Assembly: GCF_000971475.1 (NCBI RefSeq)
Contig: NZ_DF967533.1
Location: 62,001-126,000 of the forward strand
Direction: 5' to 3'
Origin: Sulfuricella sp. T08
GTDB taxonomy: Bacteria > Pseudomonadota > Gammaproteobacteria > Burkholderiales > Sulfuricellaceae
DNA: 64,000 nt
The notes under the pieces were generated by a model. That model was given only the letters and a program-made list of their open reading frames with translations, made no database searches and was not told the DNA's origin. Shown here one piece after another: positions 18,790 to 31,807 of this stretch (its first letter is position 1; each line of letters starts with the position of its first letter). A program made the translations under genes and the position numbers.

Positions 18790-21700
18790 CTAGAAATTGA
18801 TGCGCAATTCCCCGAACATCGCGTGAGCCCGATAACCCTCCCGTATTTCCCCCTGATATCGGAGTGAGGCCGTCATCCCATGCTGGTCGACGTAACTGAG
18901 CCCTGCTCCGAAGGTGGCACCGTTGCGTTTGACGTTCTTCCCTTGTAAGGCGAAGGAGGTACCTGGCGCCCCTGCATAGGCGGCAGTGATCACCCGGTTG
19001 TCGATGTCGAAATCGTGAGTCCAGGCAGCGTTCAACTCGGTGACGAGGTCTCCGTTGTGCCATTTCACGCTATGCAAAGCGCGCAAGCCCAACTCTGCAC
19101 TCAGGCTATTCGTGCTTTTCGACCCCACCAGCATATCCACCCCTCCCGCCCCGGTTTCGCGGAAATTTTCTTCGTCGATCCGGGCATAGTTCAAGGTGGC
19201 GTACGGGCCTTGGCTCCATTCGCCCGATTGGGACATGAAGCCGCCTGACAAGGATGTCGCCAGGACATTGCCACCGTGATTGCTGACGGCTAGACGGTCG
19301 ATACCTCCCACAACCACCCTGCGCTGCTGGTCGTAGTGGTTGCGGCCATAGGACAGAATTCCCTGCGCATAGGTGCCGTCCTTATTCCAGCTGCCATACA
19401 GCGACAGGTAACGCCCGTTGATGTCGCCATTTCCTCGTGCCGCGTCGAAATCAATATCCGTCAGGCTGTAACCCAGGGCGGCGCCGACCACCCAGTTGTC
19501 CCCAAATTCACGGTCATAGCCCAGGGTGATGCCAGCCGTCCGGTAGTCGAAACCGGTATAGCCATCAGCATCGCCCCCCTGATCCCCATTTTTGCCGAAG
19601 GCTTGGAGCCAGAGACCATGCTTGCCTGACAGCGTCTTCTCCCCGTCGAACAGGCTGGCAAGCGATTGGCTGTCTCCTCCATAAGCCAAGTGAACCGGCG
19701 CGAAACTGGATGCCCTGCTGCCGGATATCTGGTTACTCGCGCGCAACGCGCCGAGCCGGGTGAACAACTGTGCTGTCTGGGCTGCCGTAGCGACGGATGC
19801 GGCTCGGGTAAGGCCATCGAAGGATTCGGGACTGAGACTGGTGAATGCGGCGGCAAGGTCGGAGTGGGTGGCCAAGGACTGGATTTCAGCCAGCACGTCG
19901 GCAAGATCTCCGGTGGCACTGGAAGCAATCTTGTCCAGATGCAGCGCCACGGTTTTGCCTACAGGATGCATGGCGACCGAACCGAAACCGGCCACGAGAG
20001 TCTTCAACTGTACGGTGTCGGGCTGGTAGGCCAGGCTATAGTTGAGCAGTACCGAACGAGGCAATGTTTCGGTAGTGAACACGCCGCTGACGCCTTCGGC
20101 AGCTGTGAGGATACCGATCCCATAGGTGCCGGGTAGGAGCAGCCCGCGCCTGAAGATGCTGACCTCGGCCTCGCCAGAAAGTGTGGCCATGTTGGAGAAG
20201 GCGACATGGTCTGCGGCGAGGCTGCGGGTATCGACATCGACCCTGTATTTGCCCGAAGCGATTTGTTCCAGGCCGCCGATCACATTCGTGTTCTGCAGCG
20301 CACCGGCGCCGCCAGGCGAGAGGATGCCCGCATTGCTGAGCAGTTTGCCGTTACCCAGCACGACAGTCTCACCGCTGTTGAACTGGCCACCGGGCCGGTT
20401 GTTAAAGGCATTGCTGCCACCCCCCAGATCCACGTTGCCCGTGACGATGCCATAATTGTTCACCGTCTCGCTGCCGACCCCACCCACGATGGCCGTCTTG
20501 CTCAACGCCATAATCGTGCCGTTGTTGGTCAGGACATTAGCCGCCCCGTCGATGAAACGCACCCCGGCTCCCGAGGCGGAACCGCCGCGTACCCTGCCTC
20601 CGGCAACATCGATGCGGATGTTGTCTGCGCCATCGATGCCGATGCTTTGCGCGAGAATCCCGTCAGCATCGGCGCCGCCCACGATAATATTGCCATTAAG
20701 TTTGACCGTGACCTTACCACCGACGCCCAAATAGCTGACCCCGCCGGCGTCATCCAGTTTCTTGCCGCCGGCGCTTTGCGCAAACAGGCCGTGGGACGCA
20801 TAGCCGTAAGTGATAATATCACCGGTGTGAGTGACATCGACCGTGCCGCCCGAACCATGGCCGCCGACGCTGCCGGCTAGACCGATGAGCGGCATGATCA
20901 GATCGGGCAAGGTGCTCAGGCTGCTGGCCATCCCGCCACCGCCACCCACGCTCTGCGCCAATATGCCGTAAGCGTCGGCGCCACGCGTGACGATGCCACC
21001 GGCGCTGGTCACGAACACTGCCCCGCCATTGCCCGCGCCGCCACCGCTTTGGCCAAAATCGAGCCCCAGGCCGATGTTCAGGGATTTCGACAGCGCCCGA
21101 TCGACATTGCCTGCAATACCGCCACCACCTCCTACACTTTGCGCGAAGATGCCATGAGCCGCATCGCCATAAGTGTTGATCAGGGCATTGCTGTTGACAC
21201 GTACTTCGCCACCGTTGCCAGCTGCACCGCCGGCACCGCCGATGGCAATCTTTCCGAATGCGCCCCCTACCGCCCTGCCCCCGGCATCTTCACCGCTGGC
21301 GAAGCTCTGGGCCTCGCCGCCTCCGCCACCGACGCTTTGCGCCAGGATGGCCGTGGCCCCGTAGCCATAGGTTGTGATGTTGCCGGCGTTGTCGACCTTT
21401 ACGGAGTTACCGTGACCCTGGCTGCCGGCACTGCCCCCCACGGCGACAGAGAGATTGCGCAACTGCCCCTTGAGGAACTTCGTAATCACGTTACCTCCTC
21501 CTCCCGGGTCTTCCAGGAGCGTCGCCAGAAGCAGGTAATCATCGGCGGCCGTTCCGGTACCGAGAATGCCATCCCCACCGCTTCCACCGCCGCCGCCGAT
21601 ACTCTGGGCGTAAATACCGCGTGACAGAGCCCCCATGGTAACGATATTGCCATCGTTGATTGCATGAACTATGCCACCATCGTTGCCGTTGCCGCCATCG

Positions 21701-24700
21701 CCGCCGACGACGATCTGGGTTTTGACATTGGTGCCGGCGGTCTGGTCTTTCTCCAGCTTCGCGCTTCCGGCCTTGAACAGATAGTTGATGGCACGAGCGG
21801 AGCCCCCGCTCCCGCCGCCGCCGCCGATGCTTTGCGCCCGGATGCCGTCGGATATGTCACCGTAGGTCAGTATCGCGCCATGGTTGTCCACATCGACCTT
21901 GCCTCCCAAGTTCCCGCTTCCGCCATGGCCGCCAACCGAGAGGTTACCGTTGAAGCTGCGACCCTCATTGGCGGCGCCCAGGCCGACCGTCGCGGTGAAG
22001 CTGCCCCCCCCGGCACCTCCGCTGCCCCCCACGCTCTGGGCAAAGATGGCATGGGAGTCGTTTTCCCGCGTGGTAACCTTGCTTTCATTGGTTATGCTGA
22101 CCACACCACCGATGTTGCCCGTGCCGCCGGAACCGCCGACGGCGATCGCGCTGTTCACATTCCAGGTGTCTTTCGCGCCACCGAAACCGGCACCCACCGA
22201 GACGCTGGTTCCACCCGTGCCACCGCCGCCACCGATACTCTGGGCGAAGATGCCGTAAGCATTGTAGGTCGCGTAACGCTCGATCAGGAGTGCCTCGGGT
22301 TGGTCAGGAAGTTCGGGAGGCAGCGGCGGTTCCGGCAATGGCGGAAGGTCCGACGCATTCAGTGCCAGCAGACCCGGCGTACCCATCGACAGCATGGTTA
22401 CCTTGCTCGGAGGAACCAATCCAGTCTCGATCACGCCGGTATTCATCACGGTCACATTCTGGCCCTTGCCACCGGCGCCGCCAAAACCGCCCACTGAAAC
22501 GGCCAGATCCTTGGCCTGAGCGCCAGCAAAGGAACCGGCAAAGGAGAAACCACCGTTGCCGCCGCCACCACCCAGGCTCTGGGCGACGATGCCGCTGGCG
22601 CTTGCGCCCTGGGCGTGGATAGCATTACTGTTGGACACATTCACGTTCCCGGCATCACCGCCGGCGCCGCCGAAACCGCCCACGCTGACGGACAGATCCT
22701 TGGTATTGGTGCCCTTGGCCAGCACGCCGGTGGCGCTGAAGCCGCCATTGCCACCGCCGCCACCGACGCTCTGGGCGACGATACCGTGCGCTTTCGCTCC
22801 GGTAGTGGTGATTTCACCGGCGTTGTCGACGGTCACCAGGCTGCTCTTGCCAGCGGCACCGCCAAAGCCCCCCACGGAGACGGCCAGGTTCGCGGCACCG
22901 TCATGTTTCCCGAGCGCGACGGCCAGACTGCCGCCGCCATCGCCTCCGCCCCCGCCGAGGCTTTGCGCGAACAGGCCATAGGCGGCTGTACCATCCGTGA
23001 ACAGGGCGGCATCGTTTTCAAGATTGACGCTTCCCGCATCGCCCGCGGTGCCGCCGAAGCCGCCGACCGAGATCCCGACATTGGGCTTGCTGCCCGCACT
23101 GGCGCTGAGAGAGCCGCTGAACCCACCAGAACCACCTCCGCCCCCGATGCTCTGGGCCACGAGCGCGTGGGCGTCACCTGAGGTCGTGCTCACGCCGCCG
23201 TGGTTGACCAGATCCACGTGCCCACCATTGCCCCCCGTGCCGCCAAAGCCACCGACACTGGCATTCACGGTGAAACCCTCCGTCGTCACCCCACCGGAGA
23301 AACTGAAGCCGCCGGCTCCGCCGCCACCGCCCACGCTCTGGGCGATGACGCCAAAGGACCGCATGCCATAGGTGGTGACAGACTCGTCGTTGTGCACGCT
23401 GACCGAGCCAGCAGCGCCTCCATCACCCCCACCGCCACCGAGGCTCAAGCTGACGGAACCGGACTTCGCGCCGCTGCCGACGATGCTGAAGCCACCGGTG
23501 CCACCGCCGCCTCCCACACTCTGGGCGAACAGGCCGGCAGCCCCTGCGCCGTAGGTGTAGATCTTGCCGCTATTGGTGGCCGTCACCGCCTTGCCGTCAC
23601 CCCCGCCACCAGCGAAGCCGCCGATACCCAAGCTGCCGGCACCGGTTCCAGCTCCACTGCCGGTGATACTGAAGCCGCCGTTGCCACCGCCGCCACCCAC
23701 GCTCTGGGCGAGCAGGCCATAGGCATACTGGCCTTGGGTGACGATGCGCCCGGCATTGTCCACGGTGACGATATCCGCGTTGCCGCCACCCGCACCAAAT
23801 CCGCCCAGGTTCAAGGTGCCCGCCCCGGTGCCCGCGCCGCTGCCGGCCAGACTGAAGCCGCCGTTCCCGCCGCCACCGCCTACACTCTGGGCGAACAGAC
23901 CGACGGCACGGTCACCCTCGGTGTCGATCGCCCCGTCGTTGGTCACGTCAACACTCTTGCCATCACCGCCACCGGCCCCAAATCCGCCAATGCCCAAGCT
24001 GCCGGCCCCAGTGCCGGCGCCGCTGCCGGTGATGCTGAAGCCGCCGCTGCCACCGCCGCCGCCAACGCTCTGGGCCACCATGCCGTAGGCGTCTTCGCCG
24101 CGGGTGTGGAGGTTGCCGTAGTTATTCACCGTGACGATGGCAGCCTTCCCGCCGCCGTTGCCGGCACCACCCACACTGATGGTGGCCGCACCCGTGCCCG
24201 CGCCGGCGCCGGTGATGACGAAGCCGCCGCTACCGCCGCCACCCCCCACGCTCTGGGCGAACAGACCCACGGCGCGATTTCCCCAAGTATCAATTGCGCC
24301 ATGGTTAATTACGTCCACATTTTCACTGTCGCCGGCATGACCGCCGGCGCCACCGACGCCGATGGCGGCGGCCCCCGTGCCGGCGCCAGCCGCAGCAATG
24401 CTGAATCCGCCGTTGCCGCCGCCGCCTCCCACGCTCTGGGCAAGCAGCCCGTGGGCATCGTCCCCTTTGGTGTCGATTCCGCCCTGGTTTTCGACATACA
24501 CGGTTGCCGCCTTGCCACCGCTGCCGCCGACCCCACCGACGCCGAGCGTGAAAGCGCCAAGGCCAGCCCCTGAACCGGCGATACTGAATCCGCCGCTGCC
24601 GCCGCCGCCACCCACGCTCTGCGCCTGCAGCCCGATGGAGCGGTTGCCGCTAATCAGCTTACCAGTCAGATCGACGACGCCAGTCTCTATAGTTCCAAAA

Positions 24701-27618
24701 TTGCGCACATCCACCGCCTTGCCATCCCCACCGCTCCCGCCCTTGCCACCGAAGTTGAAGGTAATGGCCACCCCATCGCTGGCCGCGCCGGATATGGCAA
24801 ACCCACCCGTGCCGCCACCGCCGCCAATGCTCTCGGCGAAGACTCCATCGGCATCGTTGCCCTTGGTCACGATATGGCTGTGGCTGACCACGTTGACCAA
24901 CCCGGAATCACCTCCGCCGCCAGCGGCGCCACCAACGCCAATGGAGAGAGAACCACCGACCCCGGCCGAAGCCGAGACGGCAAATCCGCCGTCACCCCCG
25001 CCACCCCCGATGCTTTGCGCGAAGATGCCATAGGAACGATCGCCGGACGTCAGAATTTGGCCAGAAAGGCTGTCGACGCTCACATTGTCACCCTTGCCAC
25101 CCGCTGCCCCGCTGCCGCCAATCGCCAGACTGACGAAGGCACCCACCGCGACACTGTTCCCACCCTTGCCGCCCCCGCCGCCCACGCTCTGGGCAAAGAC
25201 GGCGCTGGCATCAGCCGCGGCAGTCTGAAGCTTCGTGCCGCTGTTGTTCACCACGACCTGACCCGCGTTGCCGCCGCCACCGCCCGTGCCGCCGATAGAG
25301 AACCAGCCCGTGCTTGAGCCACCGCTGCCACCCCCGCCACCGATGCTCTGCGCGAAGATGGCGTTGGCACCGATGCTTGCCGTATCGATCACGCCGCTGT
25401 TGGTAACGGTCACGTTCCCGCCGTCGCTGGTGCCGCTGCCACCTCCGCCCACGGCGACCAACCCCGCTGAATTGCCGCCATCGCCGCCGCCCCCGCCGAC
25501 GCTTTGCGCGTAGATACCGCGGGCACTTTCGCCGTAAGTCTGGATCAGGCCGGCGTTGTCGACCTCGACTGTGCCGCCGAAACCGCCGGCCGCACCGCTG
25601 CCGCCTACGCCCACGATGCCGGCTCCCCCGCCGCCGGCCCCGCCGCCGCCGCCGACGCTCTGCGCGTACACGGCGTGGGCACCTGTGCCGTGGGTGATGA
25701 CCTCGCCGCCGCTTAGGTTGGCGACTGAGACCGTGCCGCCGCTGCCGGCGCTGCTGCCATTGCCGCCGCGTGAATAGAAGATGCTGCCGCCACTGCCACC
25801 GCTGCCGCCGAATCCGCCCACACTCTGGGCGAAAAGGCCGTAGGCATCGCTGCCCCAGGTCGTGATCGCACCTCCGCTGATCAGCGTGACGGGGCCACCG
25901 TCGGTGGCCTGGCCACCCGGAGCCGGAGCGCCCGCCAGCCAGCCACCGCTGCCACCGGTGCCGGCGTTGCCGCCCATGCTCTTCGCCCAGATGCCGTGTG
26001 CATTGTTACCCCGGGTCGTGATATCCCAGTTGCCATCGACGTACACAGTGCCACCTTTGCCGCCAAAACCGCCAGCTCCACCACCAGTCACGTCGGCGCC
26101 ATCGCCACCGTTGCCGCCGTTGCCTCCTTCACTCAACGCGAGAATCCCGCTGGTGTAATGGCCATAGGTATTGATGACGGCGTTGCCGAATACTTCCACT
26201 AGGCCGCCGTCACCGCCGGTGCCGCCGCGCCGGCCATAGTAATAAGTGCCACCGTTGCCGCCGCGCCCGCCGTTACCGCCCGAACTTATGGCGAAAACAC
26301 CGATGCTGGCCTTATTCATCTGTTCAATCTGCTTGTAGTACTGATCAAGCGGATCAAACGGGTTGAACGGAATGAGCGGATTTATCGAAATGAAATTCGG
26401 TAGAAATTCGGTGGTGATGTTCCCGTCGACATGAACGGTCACGTGACCGCCCGAGTTGCCATCGCCACCTTGGGTGGGTTTTTTGGAACCAAAGGACCAG
26501 AAACCGCCACCATTCTTCCCGTTAGCGCCCACTCTGCCCTGGCTCTCCGCAAATACGCCATGGGAAGACGCGCCCGTGGTGGTGATCGTTCCCGCACGGT
26601 GATAAACCTCAACACTGTTGCCGGAGCCACCAGCCCCCTTGGCCTCGTCGACCAGCCCCGCCACGTAGCTATTGAGATCGGGCAATGCCTTGCCATCTGT
26701 CTGCGGCTTTGCGCTATCTCCGAAATCCTCGAAAAAGGCCGACTTCACGACTGCCAGGCCGCTATCTGTCCTGGTCACCTGGGCGATCAACTCGCCTTGC
26801 ACGCCGCTGCGTTTCAGGACGTTATTCCGATATCCGTCCAGGACATAGTTCACGGAGACGATGCGCGATCCGCCGACGGCCAGATCGTTAAAGCCCGTGC
26901 CCGGGTCGAAGCTGACGGTGCCATCCTGGCTGATCGTGAAGCTCCCGGCTTCGCCGGCATAACCGTCGAAGATCTTCAATCCATCCGCCCCTTCATGAAC
27001 CACCGCTATCCGCGCGCTCACCGAAGTATTCAGGCCCCCTTCAGTGCCATCCGGTTTTTTCACCGAGGTCACCTTGAAACTGATGCCGGCATCGGAGAAG
27101 CTTTCCAGCGCGGTGATGACCGAGCCTGGGTAGCCAGTGGTATTGCTTTTAGCATAAATGCCATGAGCGTTCGTACCACCGGTAGTGATGTCGCTATAGC
27201 TATCGACTCGCACGACACCACCGGAAACCCCGGGATTGCCGGGGATGGGAATGTTCAGCAACGGGTCGTTCTGAGGGCTGGGCGGCGATCCCTGGCTCGA
27301 CACGGCAATGCCCGGGGCCTGCTGCGTTTCAATGCTGACATTGACCTGACTGCTACCGCTGTTGATGATGAGATCCGAACCGCCATCGCTGTTCAGGCGT
27401 ATCCCTGATGTTCCCGACAAAGGATGAATCGGACCCGACAGGTTGTAGACATTCAGAGTACTCGGCGGCGCGGTGATGTTTATTCCCGCCGATTGATTGC
27501 CCTGGCAATCGCCACCGGGACAAGCATCTGGCCCGGAAATCGCCACTTGGGGGAGTGCTGCAAGAAGGAATAGGAGTTTTGTGATCAGATACCGCTGATC
27601 TGGTGTGAGAGTAAACAT
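18790..27618 (-). CDS. Giant glycine-rich autotransporter
   Basis: 2,942 residues, a type V secretion autotransporter. Signal peptide at about 1-28. The passenger contains about 32 imperfect repeats of roughly 55-70 residues, each built as a V-x-N-x-G strand, a GxxAxGIFAQSVGGGGG core and a GG-rich turn; copies near the N-terminus carry variants (AESQGR, AISSGGN, ALSEGGN). This fits a long parallel beta-helix. Two unrelated inserts interrupt it: residues ~170-330 (beta-sandwich-like) and a Pro-rich loop near residue 1750 (LPPLPEPPLPPELPDQPE). Residues from about 2660 form the beta-barrel (HGLWLQAFGKNGDQ to the terminal RINF ending in Phe). Probably an adhesin or surface-layer protein. It stands alone with its own leader. 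Confidence 0.93.
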   Translation of the reverse strand: MFTLTPDQRYLITKLLFLLAALPQVAISGPDACPGGDCQGNQSAGINITAPPSTLNVYNLSGPIHPLSGTSGIRLNSDGGSDLIINSGSSQVNVSIETQQAPGIAVSSQGSPPSPQNDPLLNIPIPGNPGVSGGVVRVDSYSDITTGGTNAHGIYAKSNTTGYPGSVITALESFSDAGISFKVTSVKKPDGTEGGLNTSVSARIAVVHEGADGLKIFDGYAGEAGSFTISQDGTVSFDPGTGFNDLAVGGSRIVSVNYVLDGYRNNVLKRSGVQGELIAQVTRTDSGLAVVKSAFFEDFGDSAKPQTDGKALPDLNSYVAGLVDEAKGAGGSGNSVEVYHRAGTITTTGASSHGVFAESQGRVGANGKNGGGFWSFGSKKPTQGGDGNSGGHVTVHVDGNITTEFLPNFISINPLIPFNPFDPLDQYYKQIEQMNKASIGVFAISSGGNGGRGGNGGTYYYGRRGGTGGDGGLVEVFGNAVINTYGHYTSGILALSEGGNGGNGGDGADVTGGGAGGFGGKGGTVYVDGNWDITTRGNNAHGIWAKSMGGNAGTGGSGGWLAGAPAPGGQATDGGPVTLISGGAITTWGSDAYGLFAQSVGGFGGSGGSGGSIFYSRGGNGSSAGSGGTVSVANLSGGEVITHGTGAHAVYAQSVGGGGGAGGGGAGIVGVGGSGAAGGFGGTVEVDNAGLIQTYGESARGIYAQSVGGGGGDGGNSAGLVAVGGGGSGTSDGGNVTVTNSGVIDTASIGANAIFAQSIGGGGGSGGSSTGWFSIGGTGGGGGNAGQVVVNNSGTKLQTAAADASAVFAQSVGGGGGKGGNSVAVGAFVSLAIGGSGAAGGKGDNVSVDSLSGQILTSGDRSYGIFAQSIGGGGGDGGFAVSASAGVGGSLSIGVGGAAGGGGDSGLVNVVSHSHIVTKGNDADGVFAESIGGGGGTGGFAISGAASDGVAITFNFGGKGGSGGDGKAVDVRNFGTIETGVVDLTGKLISGNRSIGLQAQSVGGGGGSGGFSIAGSGAGLGAFTLGVGGVGGSGGKAATVYVENQGGIDTKGDDAHGLLAQSVGGGGGNGGFSIAAAGAGTGAAAIGVGGAGGHAGDSENVDVINHGAIDTWGNRAVGLFAQSVGGGGGSGGFVITGAGAGTGAATISVGGAGNGGGKAAIVTVNNYGNLHTRGEDAYGMVAQSVGGGGGSGGFSITGSGAGTGAGSLGIGGFGAGGGDGKSVDVTNDGAIDTEGDRAVGLFAQSVGGGGGNGGFSLAGSGAGTGAGTLNLGGFGAGGGNADIVTVDNAGRIVTQGQYAYGLLAQSVGGGGGNGGFSITGSGAGTGAGSLGIGGFAGGGGDGKAVTATNSGKIYTYGAGAAGLFAQSVGGGGGTGGFSIVGSGAKSGSVSLSLGGGGGDGGAAGSVSVHNDESVTTYGMRSFGVIAQSVGGGGGAGGFSFSGGVTTEGFTVNASVGGFGGTGGNGGHVDLVNHGGVSTTSGDAHALVAQSIGGGGGSGGFSGSLSASAGSKPNVGISVGGFGGTAGDAGSVNLENDAALFTDGTAAYGLFAQSLGGGGGDGGGSLAVALGKHDGAANLAVSVGGFGGAAGKSSLVTVDNAGEITTTGAKAHGIVAQSVGGGGGNGGFSATGVLAKGTNTKDLSVSVGGFGGAGGDAGNVNVSNSNAIHAQGASASGIVAQSLGGGGGNGGFSFAGSFAGAQAKDLAVSVGGFGGAGGKGQNVTVMNTGVIETGLVPPSKVTMLSMGTPGLLALNASDLPPLPEPPLPPELPDQPEALLIERYATYNAYGIFAQSIGGGGGTGGTSVSVGAGFGGAKDTWNVNSAIAVGGSGGTGNIGGVVSITNESKVTTRENDSHAIFAQSVGGSGGAGGGSFTATVGLGAANEGRSFNGNLSVGGHGGSGNLGGKVDVDNHGAILTYGDISDGIRAQSIGGGGGSGGSARAINYLFKAGSAKLEKDQTAGTNVKTQIVVGGDGGNGNDGGIVHAINDGNIVTMGALSRGIYAQSIGGGGGSGGDGILGTGTAADDYLLLATLLEDPGGGGNVITKFLKGQLRNLSVAVGGSAGSQGHGNSVKVDNAGNITTYGYGATAILAQSVGGGGGEAQSFASGEDAGGRAVGGAFGKIAIGGAGGAAGNGGEVRVNSNALINTYGDAAHGIFAQSVGGGGGIAGNVDRALSKSLNIGLGLDFGQSGGGAGNGGAVFVTSAGGIVTRGADAYGILAQSVGGGGGMASSLSTLPDLIMPLIGLAGSVGGHGSGGTVDVTHTGDIITYGYASHGLFAQSAGGKKLDDAGGVSYLGVGGKVTVKLNGNIIVGGADADGILAQSIGIDGADNIRIDVAGGRVRGGSASGAGVRFIDGAANVLTNNGTIMALSKTAIVGGVGSETVNNYGIVTGNVDLGGGSNAFNNRPGGQFNSGETVVLGNGKLLSNAGILSPGGAGALQNTNVIGGLEQIASGKYRVDVDTRSLAADHVAFSNMATLSGEAEVSIFRRGLLLPGTYGIGILTAAEGVSGVFTTETLPRSVLLNYSLAYQPDTVQLKTLVAGFGSVAMHPVGKTVALHLDKIASSATGDLADVLAEIQSLATHSDLAAAFTSLSPESFDGLTRAASVATAAQTAQLFTRLGALRASNQISGSRASSFAPVHLAYGGDSQSLASLFDGEKTLSGKHGLWLQAFGKNGDQGGDADGYTGFDYRTAGITLGYDREFGDNWVVGAALGYSLTDIDFDAARGNGDINGRYLSLYGSWNKDGTYAQGILSYGRNHYDQQRRVVVGGIDRLAVSNHGGNVLATSLSGGFMSQSGEWSQGPYATLNYARIDEENFRETGAGGVDMLVGSKSTNSLSAELGLRALHSVKWHNGDLVTELNAAWTHDFDIDNRVITAAYAGAPGTSFALQGKNVKRNGATFGAGLSYVDQHGMTASLRYQGEIREGYRAHAMFGELRINF

Positions 27619-30162: not shown

Positions 30163-30831
30163 CTATGCTACAGCAGCCATGCGCCGCGCGAGCTCGGAGT
30201 CACGGCTTTTAATGAAATTCATGAGTTTCTGCGGGTAGTCGGCAGCTACCGCATTCCTGACTGAAGGGCGCATCGCCAGGGCTTGCCGCCATGCGCGCAC
30301 CTTGGGCGTGTTGGCAAATACACCAAAGTCGGCAATACCGTCATACACGTCGAAATAGCGGAAGATCGGGCCAAAAGCCGCATCGACCAGCGAGAAGTTC
30401 TTGCCGGCGAAATAAGGCCCTTCCTGCAAAACATTTTCAATCATTTCGAACCGGGATTGCAGCTCCTTGCGCTTTTCCTCGAAGACTTCCGCGTCTTTTG
30501 TGGTATTGAACTCCCAGATCGTGCCCAGGAGCACCGAGCCGAACTCGATCCATGCACGGTGCTGCGCGCGCTTCAGCGGATCTTCAGGATGCAGGCGCGG
30601 AGCAATCGTTTCGTCCAGGTATTCGCAGATGACGGCGGATTCGAAAATGACCTCGTCGTCGACCTGAAGCAGCGGCACCTTGCCGAGCGGAGAAATTTTG
30701 CCAAACCAGTCCGGCTTGTTGTTGAAGTCGATATTGGTGCGCTCATACGGGGCGTTCTTTTCGATTAGCGCGATGGCTGCACGTTGTGCATACGGGCAAA
30801 TTTCATGGCTTACCAGATGTAATTTCGGCAT
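30163..30831 (-). CDS. Glutathione S-transferase
   Basis: 222 residues: an N-terminal thioredoxin-like domain with Cys12-Pro-Tyr in HEICPYAQR and the glutathione-binding GKVPLLQVDDEVIFESAVICEYLD (cis-Pro and ES signature), then an all-helical C-terminal domain with the NFSLVDAAFGPIFRYF N-capping motif. The active-site Cys instead of Ser/Tyr points to an omega/beta-like, glutaredoxin-type activity. A single gene on the minus strand 79 bases downstream of the MarR regulator and possibly co-transcribed with it. Confidence 0.9.
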   Translation of the reverse strand: MPKLHLVSHEICPYAQRAAIALIEKNAPYERTNIDFNNKPDWFGKISPLGKVPLLQVDDEVIFESAVICEYLDETIAPRLHPEDPLKRAQHRAWIEFGSVLLGTIWEFNTTKDAEVFEEKRKELQSRFEMIENVLQEGPYFAGKNFSLVDAAFGPIFRYFDVYDGIADFGVFANTPKVRAWRQALAMRPSVRNAVAADYPQKLMNFIKSRDSELARRMAAVA

Positions 30832-30910: not shown

Positions 30911-31366
30911 TCAGGCGGATTGCTCAGGGGTCGCCTTCTCGGTCGCACCATCCCCTTCAAGATCTTGAACGCCGGGCACCCGGAAGATGCCCTGCAGCTT
31001 CAGCAGTTCATCGCGGTGCAGGCGAGCGAGCTTCTCCACTGTTTTTTCACCCTTAGGGGTGAGATGCACTTCCACCTCGCGCCGGTCCACCTTGCCTTGC
31101 TCACGGTATACCAAGTCCAGTTTCTCGCAGCGCGACACCAGGGAAACAACACCGTGATGATGTGACTGCAGCCGTTCGGCCAGTTCTCCGATGGTCGCCC
31201 ATTCCCGGCCCTGATAGCCTTTGATGTGGAGTAGCAGGAGGTATTGAAGATGGGTAATGCCATCGCCGTGTGTCACCTCCTCGCTGAAGCGCAGGAAACG
31301 GCGCAGCTGGTACCTGAAATGGGAGAGGGTTTCAAATTCTCTCTTGCTGAGAACGTCTTTAGCCAT
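30911..31366 (-). CDS. MarR-family regulator
   Basis: 151 residues with the MarR winged helix: YLLLLHIKGYQG, ATIGELAERLQSHHHGVVSLVSRCEKLDLVYRE (HTH), and a wing KVDRREVEVHLTPKGEKTVEKL. MarR proteins act as dimers on palindromic operators and often respond to phenolics, oxidants or persulfides. A 6-5-6 palindrome lies in the 111-base region shared with the divergent DsrC-like gene, so control of itself and of that gene is likely. Confidence 0.9.
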   Translation of the reverse strand: MAKDVLSKREFETLSHFRYQLRRFLRFSEEVTHGDGITHLQYLLLLHIKGYQGREWATIGELAERLQSHHHGVVSLVSRCEKLDLVYREQGKVDRREVEVHLTPKGEKTVEKLARLHRDELLKLQGIFRVPGVQDLEGDGATEKATPEQSA

Positions 31367-31417
31367 AAGGTAATACTACCCGTTTTATTAACACCCACAA
31401 AATAGCATGTTGTGATA

Positions 31418-31434
31418 ATATCAAACTGTGATAT
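31418..31434. promoter_or_regulatory. Candidate MarR operator
   Basis: ATATCA-AACTG-TGATAT, a perfect inverted repeat midway between the divergent MarR and DsrC-like genes, within AT-rich promoter sequence. MarR dimers bind sites of this kind. Confidence 0.55.
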
Positions 31435-31477
31435 ATAATTCCTCTGGGCATTTGATTCCTTTTTTTCATAGAGGTGA

Positions 31478-31807
31478 ATGATGGATGCATTTGTACAATT
31501 ACCGGCCATCGATGACGAGGGTTATTTGATTGACCCGCAGGACTGGAGCGAGGAACTGGCGGAAGAATTTGCCCGCCAGGAAAACATCCAGTTGACGGAA
31601 GACCACTGGGACGTGATCCGCTTTATGCGCGGGTTTTACGAGGAGCGCCAGATCGCGCCCGACGCCCGCTATGTGATCAAGCATCTGGCGGAGCGGTTGG
31701 GAACGGCGTCGCGCAACAAACTGTTCGAGATGTTTCCCTACGGTTATGTGAAGCAGGCATGCAAGATCGCTGGCATGAAGCGGCCGCGGGGCTGGAGTAC
31801 GGGCTGA
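31478..31807 (+). CDS. TusE/DsrC-family sulfur-relay protein, C-terminal Cys missing
   Basis: 109 residues of the TusE/DsrC/DsvC family, sulfur carriers in tRNA thiolation or in dissimilatory sulfur metabolism. The core is typical: DDEGYLIDPQDWSEELAEEFA, LTEDHWDVIRFMRGFYEE, and a C-terminal arm KQACKIAGMKRPRGW. The arm keeps the upstream Cys (C95) found in DsrC, but the almost invariant Cys eleven residues later is Trp106, and the tail is extended by STG. TusE shows the opposite pattern. So this is neither a normal TusE nor a normal DsrC and may bind sulfur or a partner through one Cys, or act as a regulator. GAGGTGA precedes the start. Confidence 0.88.
   Translation: MMDAFVQLPAIDDEGYLIDPQDWSEELAEEFARQENIQLTEDHWDVIRFMRGFYEERQIAPDARYVIKHLAERLGTASRNKLFEMFPYGYVKQACKIAGMKRPRGWSTG

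Follow-up and report, generated by a model that had tools for sequence, protein, structure and literature searches.

A widespread group of DsrC relatives in sulfur oxidisers with a tryptophan in place of the sulfur-carrying cysteine and a conserved MarR-type operator

The 64,000-nucleotide stretch of the Sulfuricella sp. T08 genome analysed here (the window) encodes a 109-residue DsrC-family protein that ends in a tryptophan-containing tail. Comparison of sequences makes us highly confident that it belongs to a group of DsrC relatives, stable and widespread among sulfur oxidisers, in which a fixed tryptophan stands in for the carrier cysteine and which is accompanied by a conserved operator. 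An earlier, sequence-only reading of the locus had suggested a sulfur- or redox-responsive variant; the comparative sequence evidence points instead to genes concerned with nitrate, nitrite and NO. The fuller reading, a non-carrying DsrC that would engage DsrC partners in the presence of nitrate, nitrite or NO, is one that we hold with about even confidence. The features of the locus are as follows.

31478 to 31807 (start at 31478 or 31481), plus strand: Trp-tailed DsrC-family protein, 109 aa (PF04358 / TIGR03342).
30911 to 31366, minus strand: MarR-family regulator of 151 aa, divergent from the DsrC-family gene; its RCE motif contains a Cys (PF12802, 40.7 bits against a cut-off of 27).
31418 to 31434, no strand: predicted main operator ATATCA-N4-RTGATAT, exact match, ATATCAAACTGTGATAT; from conservation across genomes.
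31402 to 31418, no strand: predicted second operator copy, degenerate with 2 mismatches and arranged in tandem with the main operator; from a pattern scan of the window.
31410 to 31439, plus strand: putative sigma-70-like promoter TTGTGA-N18-TATAAT, overlapped by the operators; a consensus match only.
30163 to 30831, minus strand: GST-like protein behind marR (PF13409); found at this position only in G005, a close relative.

Profile searches place the 109-residue protein in the DsrC family (PF04358, 117.8 bits against a cut-off of 24.9; TIGR03342, 105.6 bits against 53.5), and its membership of the PF04358 superfamily is given by profile score and fold together. The AF2 model (pLDDT 86.4, with a flexible end whose last block is at about 60) had as its top Foldseek matches 1yx3 (E 2e-7) and 1sau, both DsrC, with LexA and PerR ranking below them as weak matches (E > 1). 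Relatives of solved structure found by sequence comprised eight distinct chains, all of them by name DsrC/TusE-family, sulfurtransferase or sulfite reductase subunits. The cysteines of the DsrC tail are named CysA and CysB; here CysB is kept as C95 (codon TGC, 31760-31762), and W106 (codon TGG, 31793-31795) sits at the column of the sulfur-binding cysteine of DsrC and TusE. Only S-T-G lies between W106 and the stop codon at 31805-31807, and where DsrC proper has C-x10-C near its end the window protein has C-x10-W-STG. The codons thus bear out the earlier statement that C95 is kept and that the terminal cysteine is Trp106. A later cysteine or a frameshift restoring the tail had been named as grounds for abandoning that statement; the ORF at 31478-31807 holds neither, and 28 of the 29 loci fetched from this and related genomes retain the cysteine and end in WSTG or WSSG, the remaining one (L070) having lost its tail.

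The same reading had called the arrangement the reverse of TusE, and this is indeed what E. coli TusE displays, with a T at the C95 column and a Cys near the W106 column. That the protein is a TusE-like relay for tRNA thiolation, as the family model TIGR03342 common to both might suggest, is extremely improbable, given that the cysteine kept by TusE is absent, that the TusE equivalog NF008562 scores 83 bits against a cut-off of 191, and that the type is nearly confined to genomes with dsrA (below). TusE identity was rejected on the opposite cysteine and the equivalog score.

Across 137 non-redundant loci (149 before deduplication by the last 100 residues) C95 and W106 are kept in 136, L070 again being the exception, and the tail of the group has the signature FPYGYxxQxCxxxGMxxPRxWSxG. 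Mean column identity is 94% over the last 24 residues against 66% for residues 10-85, in an alignment limited to rows ending in WS[TSV]G, which excludes L070 alone and has 137 rows for 136 loci, the window sequence standing in it twice; L070 was left out of the conservation figures and of the tree below. A search in which one of two patterns contained the Trp tail supplied 69 of the 137 loci, and whole-protein comparison supplied the other 68, of which 67 have both C95 and W106. The 80 loci of the genome_contigs set were found partly with the Trp-containing pattern, and so are no proof that the Trp is invariant. Among 150 related genomes 44 had a match, and 26 of these are Trp-tailed, counting G090, which carries the tail-less L070. 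A class-wide draw of 369 genomes contained 43 with the Trp-tailed type, the Sulfuricella genome included; outside that genome the draw held 45 Trp-tailed places, and all 40 that were read have the C...W arrangement. Related genomes are not independent of one another in any of the Trp-tailed counts given here.

The Sulfuricella genome contains six DsrC-family genes. The five beyond that of the window (C59:93996, C59:88555, C13:137320, C57:50303 and C35:25040; L001 and L003-L006) have differing tails: one is a true DsrC near dsrA, one retains CysB only (GLPLPAYSTDPHFGSVM), one retains CysA only, and two are free of Cys at both places. Such multiplicity, together with the lost tail of the orthologue L070 and a match in G307 that has an internal stop, might be taken to mean that the gene is a functionless relic of a duplicated dsrC. 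We find this hardly credible, since the tail is conserved above the body of the protein over 136 loci, and operator and regulator recur. A relic or frameshift was rejected on the intact ORF tail in relatives and on the conservation of the tail.

In a tree of 88 DsrC-family rows from which the tail columns were omitted, the 27 Trp-tailed rows cluster, with two as the fewest changes, and in 66% of bootstrap trees a single branch separates them from all other rows. The tree has many weak forks because the protein is short. The neighbour of the Trp-tailed rows is a CysB-only clade with another tail, KxxLD[VIL], found in wider-class genomes (L305-L307, L309-L313, L317-L319 and L322), and in some other tail clades part of the members have Ser or Thr at CysB. 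The phrase "kept the wrong cysteine", by which the protein was first characterised, is therefore apt in describing a real DsrC variant but not in implying a one-off: there is a whole group with a near-invariant tail, and other CysB-only tails exist. A phage-borne origin was rejected after a pattern-limited scan of viral contigs, where none of the 18 stretches fitting the peptide pattern codes for a relative.

The palindromic site and divergent MarR gene also noted at the outset are both present, the site being exact at 31418-31434 and the gene running from 30911 to 31366 on the minus strand; judged by sequence, this is a MarR-family gene with a palindromic operator at a divergent promoter. The RCE motif occurs in 54 of 54 distinct MarR sequences. 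MarR is adjacent to and divergent from the Trp-tailed gene at 15 of the 29 loci from own and related genomes and at 36 of the 80 genome_contigs loci (the sets overlap); at nine more of the 80, of Thiobacillus type, a YIP1-like gene lies between the two and the site precedes YIP1. MarR is absent from 9 of the 26 Trp-tailed genomes among the relatives, and was seen near the Trp-tailed gene at none of 40 class-sample loci.

Alignment of marR upstream regions yielded the inverted repeat ATATCA-N4-RTGATATAT from 46 sites (of 54 distinct regions, six scoring below 13 of 16 and two at an edge were left out). The best site before the Trp-tailed gene scores 19.9-33.6 bits at 55 of 108 loci, shuffled sequences (one per locus) reaching at most 5.6, and these loci include all 36 MarR-adjacent ones of the 80-locus set. 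Because the matrix for the operator derives from MarR loci, scores there are not independent; sites are also found at L059, L060, L061 and L156, which have no MarR next to the Trp-tailed gene, and the scores of L060 and L156 are independent. In the window, a scan allowing up to two mismatches returned four rows (one place on both strands) against 0.49 expected, a number reached by 1 of 100 shuffles. In the whole genome, with up to one mismatch, the pattern occurs at one place only; since the pattern read backwards matches twice, that scan alone proves nothing, and it is because the operator is conserved in other genomes that we take it to be beyond chance. In L083 and L084 the sequence allows a tandem pair to be read that matches better than the window's. 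The promoter scan gave two overlapping matches against 0.6 expected. Because the operators overlap the promoter TTGTGA-N18-TATAAT, MarR would be expected to act as a repressor, and we infer that it represses the Trp-tailed DsrC gene.

The GST-like gene behind marR stands outside the conserved pair of MarR and Trp-tailed DsrC genes. GST, exonuclease and peroxiredoxin neighbours were rejected as partners, their same places being found only in G005, the exceptions being a WYL gene near the Trp-tailed gene and, at a distance of 6 kb, a GST homologue in G006. Elsewhere in the window, a glycine-rich repeat ORF of 2942 aa, which by eye looks like an autotransporter, occupies positions 18790-27618 of the minus strand, in a stretch whose GC content reaches 69%.

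The exact 18-base operator pattern is present in 24 of the 150 relatives, namely 18 of 31 genomes with MarR (many of which count the MarR locus that supplied the pattern) and 6 of 119 without it; read backwards it is found in 2 of 150. Of fourteen loci fetched with MarR relatives outside Trp-tailed loci, 11 carry a site scoring 18-32 bits; no operator site lies near L161 or L171, and at L173 the MarR was not located by the script. At these loci the operator precedes ClC, or MarR and then ClC, in L163, L165, L167 and L174 (by Pfam for L163, by eye for the others), and a YIP1 gene in L166, L170 and L172 (Pfam Yip1 for L166 and L172, by eye for L170). At L164 it stands before a gene that by eye resembles a Cys/Met lyase, a placement that would fit a link to sulfur instead of to nitrogen oxides.

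Genomes with both MarR and dsrA contain seven further exact sites away from the gap between marR and the Trp-tailed gene. In L331 one such site is found some 55 bases upstream of a NarK-type gene that narG follows, and beyond the site in the other direction are another NarK-type gene and one resembling NarX/NarQ; another site lies about 75 bases before an HPP-CBS gene (L334), HPP being a nitrite-transporter family. A third is about 55 bases before YIP1, behind which are a Crp/Fnr gene and, in the opposite direction, a cytochrome d1 gene, and on the other side of the site is a molybdopterin oxidoreductase (L329). The others are in the gap that separates ClC from an NsrR-like gene (L333), some 50 bases upstream of a multicopper oxidase gene, not clearly a nitrite reductase, with a score of 103 against a nitrite-reductase cut-off of 296 (L332), at a DGC-domain gene (L330), and at a YIP1 gene 0.6 kb from the Trp-tailed gene (L051). 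Curated cut-offs are not reached by either NarK-type gene, by the genes resembling NarX/NarQ and NsrR, by NirB or by a partial NarG. At six sites in MarR-less genomes (L335-L340) no adjacent gene was recognised as a nitrogen-oxide gene; near the site in L336 ends a gene that by eye is persulfide-dioxygenase-like.

The Trp-tailed type co-occurs with dsr genes, one of the associations that the sequence-only reading had proposed to look for: dsrA is present in 25 of the 26 Trp-tailed genomes among the 150 relatives against 17 of the 124 others, and in the class draw in 41 of 43 against 76 of 326. Co-occurrence with dsrAB is judged here from dsrA, the gene covered by the genome-by-genome search. 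The dsrA-less exceptions, G465, G417 and G010, are 79, 90 and 74% complete. The Trp-tailed gene starts 167 bases behind dsrA-dsrB on the same strand in L213, and lies 0.9 kb behind dsrA-dsrB, also on the same strand, in L222. The Sulfuricella genome itself has two dsrA-like regions (C13:145026-146365 and C59:90313-91624), each in two pieces and under the family cut-off.

Relatives of NnrS, hemerythrin, DUF2249, HPP, Rrf2, NarG or NirB lie within 6 kb of 52 of the 137 Trp-tailed loci, compared with 1 of 40 loci drawn at random from 20 contigs of the same genomes; the Trp-tailed count is 55 of 137 when two Pfam-less clusters (representatives L111 and L139) and NrtA/NrtB assigned by eye are included. 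The families were chosen after the neighbourhoods had been inspected, and each name rests on one representative. Restricting the set to NnrS, NarG and NirB leaves 24 of the 137 Trp-tailed loci and none of the 40 random ones. In the class sample the seven families are near 13 of 40 Trp-tailed loci and NnrS, NarG or NirB near 8 of 40, and NnrS or hemerythrin alone is unenriched there (2 of 40 against 1 of 40). GGDEF genes were rejected as neighbours, being no commoner near Trp-tailed loci (15 of 137) than near random ones (4 of 40). The Trp-tailed gene stands behind narGHJI in L151, L206 and L231, curated narH, narJ and narI models having been run for the last. Among the dsrA-bearing genomes, narG is found in 16 of 41 with the Trp-tailed gene against 11 of 76 without it (p 0.005, uncorrected for kinship).

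Control regions give a second line of evidence. Exact boxes of the FNR type, TTGAY-N4-RTCAA, the consensus bound by FNR, precede 17 of the 137 Trp-tailed genes against 0.2 expected from shuffles, and at 10 of 40 class-sample loci a LysR gene is directly divergent within 200 bases; in many MarR-less lineages one or the other of these is upstream of the Trp-tailed gene. The window itself offers only the MarR/Trp-tailed pair and its operator, and none of the ten genes around was seen to be a nitrogen-oxide gene beside the Trp-tailed one; the link to nitrogen oxides rests on other genomes. NapA and NnrS are present in the Sulfuricella genome, in which NarG had no match at E 1e-100. Control of the Trp-tailed DsrC gene is probably linked to nitrogen oxides, and in no fewer than two unrelated ways, through MarR sites and through FNR-type boxes.

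We propose that in this and related Betaproteobacteria MarR would be a regulator linked to nitrate and nitrite, with the Trp-tailed gene as its most regular target and repression lifted once nitrate, nitrite or NO appears, and that in other lineages FNR-type boxes or a LysR gene would take its place. The Trp-tailed DsrC would then bind at sites meant for DsrC, on DsrAB in the first place or on DsrEFH, DsrMK or DsrL; that it docks on a Dsr partner we find evenly balanced. Once bound and unable to carry sulfur, it might tune or shield the rDsr pathway, and such blocking or shielding is possible, though we incline against it. A non-carrying DsrC is the simplest account because the arm is the most constrained part of the protein, the type is nearly confined to genomes with dsrA, and its control appears tied to nitrogen oxides. 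Nitrite and NO react with siroheme, and a more specific version would have the arm enter the DsrC channel of DsrAB, where the Trp would plug it and keep nitrite and NO off the siroheme during denitrification; we think this guard unlikely. If it were true, MarR, FNR-type regulators and LysR would be independent switches of one guard, and sulfur oxidation and denitrification would be in cross-talk.

Two other functions were weighed against a non-carrying partner of the Dsr proteins. A DNA-binding or otherwise regulatory protein needs no sulfur-carrying cysteine, an idea modelled on RspA, which is said to have been described by Venceslau and co-workers in 2014 as a DsrC-family member that requires no conserved cysteine and has a role in gene expression. 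The lost carrier cysteine, the regulator genes adjoining the Trp-tailed gene at many loci, and the weak fold matches to LexA and PerR would all suit it; yet those matches have E > 1, C95 is invariant in the 136 tail-bearing loci, which a Cys-independent role would leave unexplained, and the gene occurs within dsrAB and narGHJI runs, and we regard this as improbable. C95 might alternatively be the sole working thiol of a single-Cys sensor or carrier (as a persulfide, S-nitrosothiol or mixed disulfide), with the Trp tail giving partner specificity. Its presence in all 136 loci with the tail and the NO-related neighbours at some loci (NnrS, hemerythrin and Rrf2 genes) favour this second reading, but Ser or Thr replaces CysB in parts of other tail clades, so that the cysteine may be dispensable or structural in the family, and in the part of the A. 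vinosum DsrC study considered here (PMC3397948) sulfur is bound and transferred only at the penultimate cysteine; we consider it rather unlikely. By the same study the Trp-tailed DsrC, lacking the sulfur-carrying cysteine, should not relay sulfur. MarR is also a candidate regulator of nitrogen-oxide genes in these bacteria. With the signature, the promoter and operator, and a putative regulon containing nitrate/nitrite genes in hand, the role of the extra DsrC paralogues becomes testable in cultured Thiobacillus and Sulfuricella.

Among known systems, RspA as reportedly defined is alike in being a DsrC-family protein without the carrier cysteine in sulfur-metabolising bacteria, and differs in that the Trp-tailed protein keeps C95 throughout. 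TusE has the family model in common with it, keeps the opposite cysteine, and has an equivalog cut-off that the Trp-tailed protein does not reach. The CysB-only sister clade, with the tail QQACKIAG[MT]RxPxKxxLD[VIL], shares the FPYGY..QACKIAGMR core and CysB, but has another tail and no Trp. Some viral DsrC-like proteins likewise have no second Cys motif: the portions of two reports considered here describe such proteins without the second C-terminal cysteine (PMC4164917) and one sequence with the first motif only (PMC8190135), and our pattern-limited viral-contig scan contained no Trp-tailed relative. The part of a third report considered here lists four DsrC paralogues of A. vinosum besides dsrC and leaves their roles open (PMC3368242), and in the abstract beginnings and passages of the open-access literature that we searched no description of the Trp tail or operator was found. 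DsrC itself is the closest comparison: it shares with the Trp-tailed protein PF04358/TIGR03342, the fold, the flexible end, CysB and co-occurrence with dsrA, whereas the Trp-tailed protein has W followed by STG (MxRPRxWSTG in place of LPKPTGC[IV]; in full, tails of the window type end in CKIAGMxRPRxWSTG) and regulators of its own.
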